Part shown: one piece after another, positions 108 through 3,720 of the stretch | Layout: every line of letters begins with the position of its first letter | Numbering within the stretch: position 1 is the first letter of the stretch | NCBI GenBank assembly: GCA_023954795.1 | Contig: JAGSHA010000002.1 | Coordinates: forward strand, 1 to 45,957 | Source of the DNA: Oceanospirillaceae bacterium | Lineage (GTDB): Bacteria > Pseudomonadota > Gammaproteobacteria > Pseudomonadales > Balneatricaceae | Direction: 5' to 3' | DNA length: 45,957 nt | Translations under genes and position numbers: made by a program | The notes under the pieces: model-generated | Told to the model about the DNA's origin: nothing | Seen by the model: the letters and a program-made list of their open reading frames with translations, nothing else | The model's database searches: none

Positions 108-251
108 GTCTGAAAACCAGAGAGGTAGATACAAGAGTTTGAGCGCATCAGCCGTGATGATCGATGCTGAATGACATCTTGCTAGGCGGAGATTTACTGA
201 CTGCTTTGTCTTGCTGTAGGAGAAGGGCGAAGATTATAGATGTAAATAGAA

Positions 252-293
252 GGGTGATTTGCAGTCTATAACTGACAGATCACCCTCTATTTT
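252..293 (-). terminator. Hairpin terminator after trpB
   Basis: GGGTGAT (252-258) pairs with ATCACCC (279-285). A T-rich tract follows on the plus side. On the minus strand, where trpB ends 20 nt earlier, the hairpin is followed only by TTCTATTTAC. It may serve both directions, with the plus-strand version the more classical. Confidence 0.55.
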
Positions 294-312: not shown

Positions 313-1515
313 TTACAGACCCAGCTTATCAGCTACGTAGTCGGCGTCTTTATCGCCACGACCAGACAGGTTCACCAGAATCATTTGATCCGATGGCAGC
401 TCTGGGGCTTTACGCATAGCCCAAGCGACGGCATGAGAGCTTTCCAGCGCAGGAATGATGCCCTCAACGCGAGACAGTGTCATGAATGCGTTCAGACACT
501 CTTCATCGGTCACTGAATCATAGTCTACACGCCCTAAATCTTTCAGGTAGCTATGCTGTGGGCCCACACCCGGATAATCCAGGCCAGAGGCGATGGAGTG
601 AACTGGCATCGGTTCACCGTCTTCAGTTTCTAAGACATAACACTTCATACCATGAAGTTCGCTTGGTTTGCCCAGTGTTAGCGTGGCAGAGTGGTCTTTG
701 GTGTCGAGACCTTTACCTGCAGGTTCTACACCAACCAGTTTGACGTCTTTGTCATCCAGGAAGGCCGTGAATGCGCCCATCGCATTTGAGCCACCACCCA
801 CACAAGCGGTGATGTAGTTTGGCAGTTTGCCATGCGCGGTCATGAACTGTTCGCGAGCCTCGGTGCCGATAATGCTCTGGAAGTCACGTACCATTTTCGG
901 GAAAGGATGTGGGCCTACCACAGAACCAATCGCGTAGATGAAGTTCACCGGATCTTTCAGATACTCTTCGAACGCACTATCGACGGCATCCTTCAGCGTT
1001 GCCGTACCGCGGGTTACGGGTACCAGTTTACAGCCTAAGATTTTCATCTTAGTTACGTTCGGGTGTTCTTTTTCGATATCTACCTGGCCCATATGGATTT
1101 CACATGGGATACCCACCAAGGCACAGGCGGTTGCCAACGCGACACCGTGCTGACCCGCTCCGGTTTCAGCGATCACTTTGGTTTTACCCATGTATTTCGC
1201 CAGCAGGGCTTCACCCAGGCAGTGATTAATTTTGTGCGCGCCGGTGTGGTTCAGGTCTTCACGTTTCAGATAGATCTGAGCTCCGCCCAATTGAGCACTC
1301 AAGCGGCTGGCATGATAGACCGGGCTAGGACGACCTACATAGTCAGCGAACAGCGAGTCGAGTTCTTCCTGAAACTCAGGGGTCTGACGAATCTCTTCGT
1401 AGGCACCGTCGATCTCATCCATAATCTCTTTAAGTTCAGGTGGGATGATCTGGCCACCGTACTCACCAAAATAACCGTTGGCATCCGGCATTGCCGCAAA
1501 ATCGAACTTACTCAT
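313..1515 (-). CDS. trpB: Tryptophan synthase beta chain (orphan TrpB)
   Basis: This PLP enzyme condenses indole with L-serine to make tryptophan. The product is 400 residues, the usual length. The PLP lysine is in AHKIN (K95), the AETGAGQHG loop is at 116-124, the phosphate-binding GGGSNAMG at 240-247, and the C-terminal SGRGDKD is present, so the active site looks complete. An upstream ATG would add 25 residues. I chose 1515 because GAGGT precedes it and the family N-terminus (F-G-E-Y-G-G) follows at the expected distance. No trpA lies beside it: the neighbours are a chemotaxis receptor upstream and noncoding DNA downstream. That suggests a second, stand-alone copy rather than the biosynthetic operon gene, although this cannot be proved from one window. 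A palindromic promoter lies just upstream. Confidence 0.93.
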
Positions 1516-1561
1516 GTTACCTCGCTGTAAATCTTTTTGATCTTTTTGTATCGCAAAAAAG

Positions 1562-1592
1562 AATATAAAGCGGTTGGCAGGGCCTGCCAACC
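1562..1592 (-). promoter_or_regulatory. Palindrome overlapping a sigma-70-like promoter before trpB
   Basis: On the minus strand TTGGCA (1590-1585) and TATATT (1567-1562) are separated by exactly 17 nt, a good -35/-10 pair giving a leader of about 40 nt before the trpB ATG. A near-perfect palindrome, 9-bp arms GGTTGGCAG/CTGCCAACC around GGC (1572-1592), covers the -35 and most of the spacer. This suits an operator. The same hairpin followed by a U-rich stretch could instead terminate the upstream receptor gene, whose stop codon is at 1619. Both roles are inferred. Confidence 0.55.
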
Positions 1593-1618: not shown

Positions 1619-3271
1619 TTAGCTTTTGGCAGGCCAGTATCCAACGCGGAATCCGCCCCAATGACGCCCGTTGACGAAAATCGGTACAGATAGGTCGTGC
1701 ATGATTTCGCCCGTGTCGCGCTTATAGGTTTGCAGAAGCATACGTTCAGTATGGCATCCGCAGCGTGCACCGGTGCGGTCATTAAAGAGACGTTTGCTGC
1801 GGCTTTTGACGAGGTCGGTTTTATAGTCTCCGGTTGGAGGGTGGGCAAACTGGTTGTTGTGAGTTGGCACGTAGCCGTTGGGGTCAGTAACAATGGCGTA
1901 GACAAGATCGCTGTTGTCATTCAATGCGGCTTCTTGCACCGATGGTAAAGCACGATCGGTATATTGATCGAAACGGGTGGTGTATTTCTGCGGATTAGTG
2001 CCATCAACGGGCTGATAATCGCGATCAAACAGGTCCGCTTCGCTAAGAGAGCCAGAACGAATTTCATTTTCAAAAACTTCGGAAATTTTGTCAGCGCAAC
2101 GACGGGCTGCTTCATAGAAACTCTTGTGGAAGTTTGTTTCGGTATGCTCCGCCAGCACTGCGCTTGAAACTTCGGCAACCTCCATCAGCGATGAAGCCTG
2201 ATTGGCCAAGACACGTACTTCATCATCACTGGATATAATTTCAGATCGAATCTTCTGAATCGACGTAGAGATCATTTCCAGGTTGTCCTGATTGTTTGAG
2301 GCGCCGCCGGCAATAATCGAAATCTGCTCTTCGACCGCTGCGGATTGGGAGGAGATCCCGCCAAGTTGCTGGCTGACTTCCGACATAATACGGCTACTGT
2401 CTTCAACATTGCCGGAAAGGGTTGTAATGCGTGACACCACCTGACGCGTTTCTAATTGTATCTCGTCGACGATGGTTTCCACTTCACCGGTTGCACCTGC
2501 TGTACGTGCAGCCAATTGGCGAACTTCATCGGCTACGACGGCAAATCCCCGGCCGTGATCACCGGCACGGGCTGCTTCGATTGCCGCATTCAGTGCCAGC
2601 AAGTTTGTTTGCTCCGCGATCTCTTCAATGACTTTAGTGACGCTCTGGATTTGATTAGATTTTTCGTTTAGCTGTTCAATCAGCCGAAGCGTTTCACCAC
2701 TTTGTTCGTTTAATTGATCAATTTTGTACAGCGCTTGCTCCAGCGATGTTTGTCCCTGCTCGCAGGTATCTTTGGCGTGTTTAGCCAGTTCTGCTGCCCG
2801 AGAGGCCTGATCGGCAGATTGTTGCACGGTTTCTGTCATGTTCTGAGAGTTGTCGGCAATCTGTGCGATCTCTCGTACCTGTACATCCAGTTTGGCGCGC
2901 AGATTATCCGCTGAAAATGATACTTCGGCAGCCGCAATGGCGTTGGAGTTTGTTTTTGCAGAGAGCAGGTCGCTGATGGTTCGGCCGCGCTGAAATCCCA
3001 ACACCAGTGACTGCAGGGCCGGCAGAGAATAACTGTCTTCAGCTGTTCGACGTCCTTCGGCGGCATCGGTTGTCTGATTGAGGAAGGGCGCTACAACCGT
3101 GCGATGAATTACGAGCTGAGTGATTGCACAGCTAATAAAAGCGACAACGATGATGAGTACAATAACGGAGATAGGGACATCCACTACAAATGCTGCCAGG
3201 GCAGCCAGTGCGGCAAGTCCAAAGACAATACTAAAACTTTTGAGATAATTGCCGGATACAGTGTTGTTCAT
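1619..3271 (-). CDS. Methyl-accepting chemotaxis protein with C-terminal cytoplasmic sensor domain
   Basis: This chemoreceptor would signal to CheA/CheW. Of 550 residues, two hydrophobic helices lie at about 12-30 and 33-53 with almost no loop between them, so there is no periplasmic ligand domain. The signalling hairpin tip is unmistakable ([18 protein letters not shown] at about 220-237) and coiled coil extends on both sides. From about residue 380 to 547 there is an additional globular domain containing [18 protein letters not shown] (503-509), [11 protein letters not shown] and [11 protein letters not shown]. Sensing is therefore probably cytoplasmic. The C-terminal domain recurs in proteobacterial receptors, but I cannot name its ligand. 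The cysteine/histidine cluster could bind metal or redox cofactors. The start is the first in-frame ATG and its ribosome site is weak. Confidence 0.92.
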
Positions 3272-3375: not shown

Positions 3376-3720
3376 TTAGTTGAAATCGAAGCCGAGTTGA
3401 ATTTCATCTCGTTTAGCCGGACGAAATCCGCGTTGTTTCTGCTCGCGATTGATCTCTTTGAGTAAATTTCTGCCGGCTTGGTATGAACGTGCAACGGTAT
3501 GTGTGACTGTGCCGTCGTTACAGGTACTATCTCCCCAGCACTGAGTGACAATCCAGTCACCGATCAGATCCTGATAGAGGCGCACGATGTAATATTCTTG
3601 CTCTTTTCGCCAGCGTACGATCAACTGAGTGTTACCGTTTAATGAACTGCAGCAATGTGGAAATAATAAGTCGGCGCATTGAGCCTGAATCTTGTGAATT
3701 TGTAAAGCCTGAAAGCCCAT
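3376..3720 (-). CDS. Small stand-alone WGR-domain-like protein
   Basis: The 114-residue protein has a WGR-like core from about residue 30 to 100: R-L-Y-Q-D-L-I-G-D-W-I-V-T-Q-C-W-G-D, then a T-x-x-x-x-S-x-x-x-A helix and a K/R-x-x-G-F end. The signature WGR is WGD here. In known families WGR domains bind nucleic acids in PARPs, ligases and MolR-type proteins, and free single-domain versions occur in bacteria. The annotated start is uncertain: no clear Shine-Dalgarno precedes the ATG at 3720, and it lies only 33 bp from the divergent pdxB start, so promoters of the two genes must overlap or pdxB transcription starts inside this gene. The function is unknown. Confidence 0.6.
   Translation of the reverse strand: MGFQALQIHKIQAQCADLLFPHCCSSLNGNTQLIVRWRKEQEYYIVRLYQDLIGDWIVTQCWGDSTCNDGTVTHTVARSYQAGRNLLKEINREQKQRGFRPAKRDEIQLGFDFN

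Follow-up and report, generated by a model that had tools for sequence, protein, structure and literature searches.

The extra trpB gene and its neighbours

The window, meaning the whole stretch of DNA that was analysed (45,957 nucleotides), comes from a marine bacterium whose nearest named relative is Pontibacterium granulatum. The following genes and gene-end features, all on the minus strand, make up the locus.

3376..3720, minus strand: small conserved gene, 114 aa, between pdxB and trpB; the upstream neighbour of trpB in relatives that lack the receptor gene
1619..3271, minus strand: methyl-accepting chemotaxis receptor gene, with its stop codon about 25 nt ahead of the hairpin
313..1515, minus strand: extra trpB, TrpB1 type, 400 aa, ATG at 1515
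251..284 (approximate), minus strand: putative trpB terminator hairpin after trpB, GGGTGATCTGTCAG...ATCACCC followed by TTCTATTT

The product of the extra gene is a TrpB1-type tryptophan synthase beta chain (TIGR00263). Relatives support the ATG at 1515 as its start; the TTG at 1590 that opens the mechanically called ORF is not the start codon. Because a hairpin of its own follows the gene, trpB is probably a single-gene unit. The sequence-only reading had described this trpB as an orphan. It does lie away from trpA and is probably monocistronic, but it is an additional copy, as the genome also has a complete truA-trpF-trpB-trpA-accD locus on another contig. Orthologues of the extra gene, 72–99% identical, were present in 67 of the 117 family genomes searched, and close relatives also occur in Shewanella, Halomonas, Pseudomonas and others. 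A second copy of the trpB 3' part (window 313-750), with 145 aa identical, lies at the edge of another contig of the same assembly (C23 of G000, 1-440); this copy is probably assembly or strain redundancy, the assembly having 6% contamination.

The C-terminal part of the receptor (window 1622-2179, minus strand), a stretch of about 186 aa that follows the signalling domain, is well conserved in relatives. It had no match in Pfam and none to PDB sequences, and is possibly an uncharacterised domain with a sensory role. The small 114-aa gene, conserved across the family, had no Pfam or NCBIfam match.

A palindrome overlaps the trpB promoter

Between the receptor stop codon and the trpB ATG the minus strand reads ...AATGGTTGGCAGGCCCTGCCAACCGCTTTATATTCTTTTTTGCGATAC..., and holds these elements.

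1572..1592, minus strand: palindrome and RNA hairpin stem, GGTTGGCAGG-C-CCTGCCAACC; the hairpin is 1571-1593 with the outer U.G pair included
1585..1590 (read 1590-1585), minus strand: -35 element of the trpB promoter, TTGGCA, within the left arm; conserved in relatives
1562..1567 (read 1567-1562), minus strand: -10 element of the trpB promoter, TATATT, 17 nt from the -35; conserved in relatives
1555..1570, minus strand: U-rich tail of the putative terminator, CTTTATATTCTTTTTT; includes the -10 of the trpB promoter
1542..1560, minus strand: second dyad, A/T-rich, (C/T)TTTTTGCGATACAAAAAG, spanning the expected transcription start (about 1554)

On first reading, a palindrome had been described here that covers the -35 and the spacer in a well-spaced promoter, and both parts of that description hold, except that the arms are 10 bp long and not 9. 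The arms (1572-1581 and 1583-1592) are perfect and, listed as an inverted repeat, are separated by 1 nt; folded as RNA, the sequence leaves a 3-nt loop. About 0.1 perfect repeats with arms of at least 10 bp and a loop of at most 3 nt are expected in the whole window under a dinucleotide model, and this is the only site in the window where a stem of at least 8 bp lies on a promoter-like sequence. The promoter, TTGGCA-17-TATATT, matches the sigma-70 consensus at 10 of 12 positions, has both hexamers with a spacing inside the 16–18 nt range, and is kept in relatives. The repeat holds the -35 and most of the 17-nt spacer, with the -10 lying beyond it. In Pontibacterium the sequence is near-invariant all the way from the -35 to about +14, including the second dyad over the start site. 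This dyad differs by one base among the four Pontibacterium genomes; elsewhere it has only matches with 2–3 mismatches.

Some other identities for the site were tried. A sigma-54 promoter (TTGGCAC-N5-TTGC), suggested by the TTGGCA, had no match at 1562-1592, where the spacing is unfit, and Rfam gave no match at the palindrome. Pairing between the palindrome and a similar TTGGCAGG at the receptor 3' end (1626-1635) was rejected, as it is missing already in the closest relative, G004.

The promoter is found with and without the receptor gene

The upstream regions of about 60 orthologues of the extra trpB were compared. In most relatives the gene order is pdxB (divergent), the small gene, then trpB. 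The receptor gene lies between the small gene and trpB in three genus-level groups, here called g1 (Pontibacterium and relatives), g8, and g16 (Neptuniibacter). About 38 genomes conserve the promoter as TTGG-N17-TATA(T/G)T, a count that leaves out exceptions because the scan pattern demanded TTGG. It is recognisable as TTGG(C/T)(A/C)-N17-TATA(T/G)T in g1, g8, Amphritea, Marinobacterium and Shewanella/Aliivibrio, and Oceanospirillum sediminis has TTGGAA-N17-TATATT without a palindrome; in g16 the trpB promoter has diverged. Since the promoter is present in relatives that have neither receptor nor palindrome, it is independent of both and probably older.

Across Shewanella, Amphritea, Marinobacterium and Pontibacterium the -35 is TTGG, mostly TTGGCA, as opposed to the consensus TTGA, and the spacer is saturated with changes.

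The palindrome follows the receptor gene and excludes a separate terminator

Strong palindromes were restricted to g1 and g8, where the receptor gene is directly upstream with no other terminator, and were present in seven of these eight genomes. In g1 they occur in 4/5 genomes with arms of 8–10 bp, and in g8 in 3/3 genomes, two of which have perfect arms of 12 and 13 bp; the stem of M. arenosum has 11 bp including one U.G pair. In the fifth g1 genome, M. jannaschii, the receptor gene is followed by a separate hairpin that is GC-rich and has a poor U-tail, and the palindrome has decayed to a 5-bp remnant at the -35. Among the g16 genomes with the receptor gene, eight of nine have a separate canonical terminator (d 33–43, T5–T7) and no palindrome. 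The ninth, L037, has a GC hairpin after the receptor gene with no T-run. The only Neptuniibacter of g16 without the receptor gene (L013/L105) has neither terminator nor palindrome. No terminator-like site with d above 0 was found in the 34 genomes that have only the small gene upstream of trpB. Thus the hairpin is tied to an upstream receptor gene and is interchangeable with another terminator. The kinship of these genomes means that the association rests on few independent events.

Arms of at least 5 bp on the -35 and spacer were found in 0/8 genomes of Marinobacterium sensu stricto, 0/7 of Shewanella/Aliivibrio and 5/14 of the Amphritea group, where they were 5–7 bp and none exceeded 7 bp. 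Four Amphritea genomes without the receptor gene have 6–7-bp palindromes on the same -35; these differ in spacing and lack a U-tract. The arms are therefore conserved upstream of trpB within Pontibacterium and g8, but most relatives that keep the promoter lack the palindrome.

Where the hairpin exists, its pairing is kept despite letter changes: there is a U.G pair in M. arenosum, U.G versus C-G as the outer pair within Pontibacterium, and A-U versus G-C as an outer pair within g8. The arms are conserved in the four Pontibacterium genomes while the loop varies, and loops across relatives range from 3 to 7 nt. The half-sites are spaced by 7 nt in g1 and by 6 nt in g8, and are closer together in the Amphritea cases.

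In L037 (Neptuniibacter G098), GCCCGG-GTTTGAATAT-CCGGGC lies between the receptor gene and trpB, just ahead of the trpB TATAAT; this hairpin, which replaces the canonical terminator of its relatives, is perhaps a second independent move of a hairpin onto the promoter. In Shewanella L153 a perfect palindrome with 11-bp arms, GTTATACCAAT-TGCT-ATTGGTATAAC, lies on the -35 of the same extra trpB, where the sister species L143, L150 and L157 have an imperfect one. The perfect form looks like a product of quasipalindrome correction.

The hairpin resembles an intrinsic terminator with a weak U-tract

A stable GC-rich hairpin follows shortly after the receptor stop codon, as in an intrinsic terminator, and the only terminator-like sites listed at the end of the receptor gene consist of the palindrome DNA (stem and tail). 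In six sequences with strong palindromes the folding z-scores were -3.2 to -7.4, and the hairpin stability was -14 to -26 kcal/mol. The d'Aubenton-Carafa score (d) was +1.6 in the window and G004, a value reached or exceeded by 4% of random 116-nt stretches, -4.0 in N1E34 and -7.2 in P. granulatum. Two g8 members scored 17.7 and 31.8, and M. arenosum about -1. Canonical terminators of the same window scored +37 to +56. The U-tract in the window's genus is weak to borderline; it is interrupted here because it must double as the -10 hexamer.

Alternative explanations

The sequence-only reading preferred an operator, at which a trpB-specific repressor dimer bound to the palindrome over the -35 and spacer would turn trpB off. 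The position is ideal for repression, the four Pontibacterium genomes keep the arms while the loop varies, a conserved second dyad lies at the transcription start in this genus, and short palindromes recur on the same -35 in some Amphritea. Against this, many relatives keep the promoter without the palindrome, and the half-site spacing is not fixed. The only adjacent regulator seen was an ArsR-type gene, which lies about 600 nt beyond trpB in the species of the window and close kin; as a conserved downstream regulator it was rejected, being confined to some Pontibacterium and missing beside trpB in N1E34, which keeps the palindrome. No regulator gene was found to accompany the palindrome in all palindrome-bearing genomes. 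Pattern scans of the window's own genome and seven relatives found the motif about once per genome, which gives no sign of a regulon; other matches had different spacings in the own genome, and the extras in the relatives lacked the T-run and were not repeated between genomes. A TrpR operator (GTACTAGTTAACTAGTAC-like palindrome) had no match in the window at up to 3 mismatches. We consider an operator unlikely. That the hairpin follows the receptor gene and not trpB, that its pairing is kept (U.G pairs form only in the sense RNA) and that the half-site distance shifts argue for an RNA stem rather than a site for a dimeric protein.

The stem could also act in the RNA without terminating transcription, shielding a receptor mRNA 3' end made by Rho or by processing, with any effect on trpB incidental. 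Its stability and the weak U-tract in Pontibacterium would suit such a role, but good terminator scores are found at the same place in two g8 members and canonical terminators stand in for the hairpin in g16, so that 3'-end protection seems quite improbable. The palindrome might instead be a mutational product, with a copy of the -35 region brought into the spacer by template switching (quasipalindrome correction), leaving the promoter as the only function. The perfect palindrome of L153 beside the imperfect ones of its sisters indicates that such events may occur here. However, seven genomes from two genera retain the right arm despite large coding divergence and a changed loop, and decay of this arm coincides with a separate hairpin; a neutral origin without further function is very hard to credit.

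A probable receptor-gene hairpin on an older trpB promoter

The explanation we favour, and consider somewhat probable, is that the palindrome is the 3'-end hairpin of the receptor mRNA, placed on a pre-existing sigma-70 promoter of trpB, and most likely a moderate-strength intrinsic terminator. It builds on how the elements overlap, on a promoter that is ancestral, and on a palindrome that is linked to the receptor gene and mutually exclusive with a terminator or hairpin elsewhere; termination itself is predicted from the sequence. A terminator of the receptor gene had been offered on first reading as the lesser alternative, and it fits better than the operator because the hairpin tracks the receptor gene and is exclusive with a separate terminator. 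The choice posed there between a promoter with its operator and a terminator falls away, as the -35 lies in the stem and the -10 in the tail.

In the proposed arrangement the fixed -35 TTGGCA would provide the 5' side of the stem, the free 17-nt spacer would have gained the complementary 3' side, and the T-rich -10, CTTTATATT, would double as the U-tract. A single 40-bp element would thus end the receptor transcript and begin the trpB transcript. In a tree of PdxB and TrpB, g1 is placed beside g16 (82/85) and g8 elsewhere, and a clade of g1 and g8 is without support. Two histories would fit: the receptor-bearing lineages inherited the fused element from an ancestor, with later replacement in g16 and M. 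jannaschii, or the element had two origins. In both, the conserved -35 is a ready-made arm, and the Shewanella genome L153 suggests that an imperfect palindrome on this -35 can turn into a perfect one.

Receptor transcription may influence trpB, either through polymerase crossing its promoter or through re-initiation by released polymerase. In vitro, polymerase that a terminator has released can remain on the DNA and re-initiate at a nearby promoter (Kang et al. 2020, PMC6978380), so receptor transcription could block or feed trpB. It is a distant prospect that polymerase released on the trpB promoter re-initiates there, or blocks it, and so couples receptor and tryptophan-synthase expression without a regulator protein.

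The locus is a compact natural example of base pairs that are under promoter and hairpin demands at once, and relatives supply the comparison, with the promoter alone, with a promoter and a separate terminator, or with the two fused. If termination is true, the locus shows how a gene placed ahead of an old promoter can turn that promoter into its own terminator, and polymerase recycling could be tested here in vivo. The locus also cautions that a palindrome over a -35 need not be an operator.

Comparison with known systems

The authors of the in vitro study expected re-initiation to depend on the distance between terminator and promoter (PMC6978380). Their elements were separate, whereas here the distance would be zero and re-initiation is only proposed. 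Pelodictyon luteolum has a stand-alone TrpB whose gene is isolated from trpA (PMC11917138). The gene studied here is likewise apart from trpA, but a second, operon-borne trpB sits with trpA. A search of the literature outside subscription journals found no direct precedent for a bacterial overlap of promoter and terminator.

Like intrinsic terminators, the element has a GC-rich hairpin about 25 nt past a stop codon followed by a T-rich stretch; unlike them, half of its stem must also serve as a -35. The E. coli frdABCD terminator, which is also the ampC attenuator, is one hairpin that ends the upstream operon and sits in the control region of the next gene. The two cases would be alike in that a single hairpin is both the end of an upstream transcript and part of the next gene's control region. 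In E. coli, however, the hairpin is downstream of the promoter, in the ampC leader, whereas here it lies on the -35 and -10 themselves.
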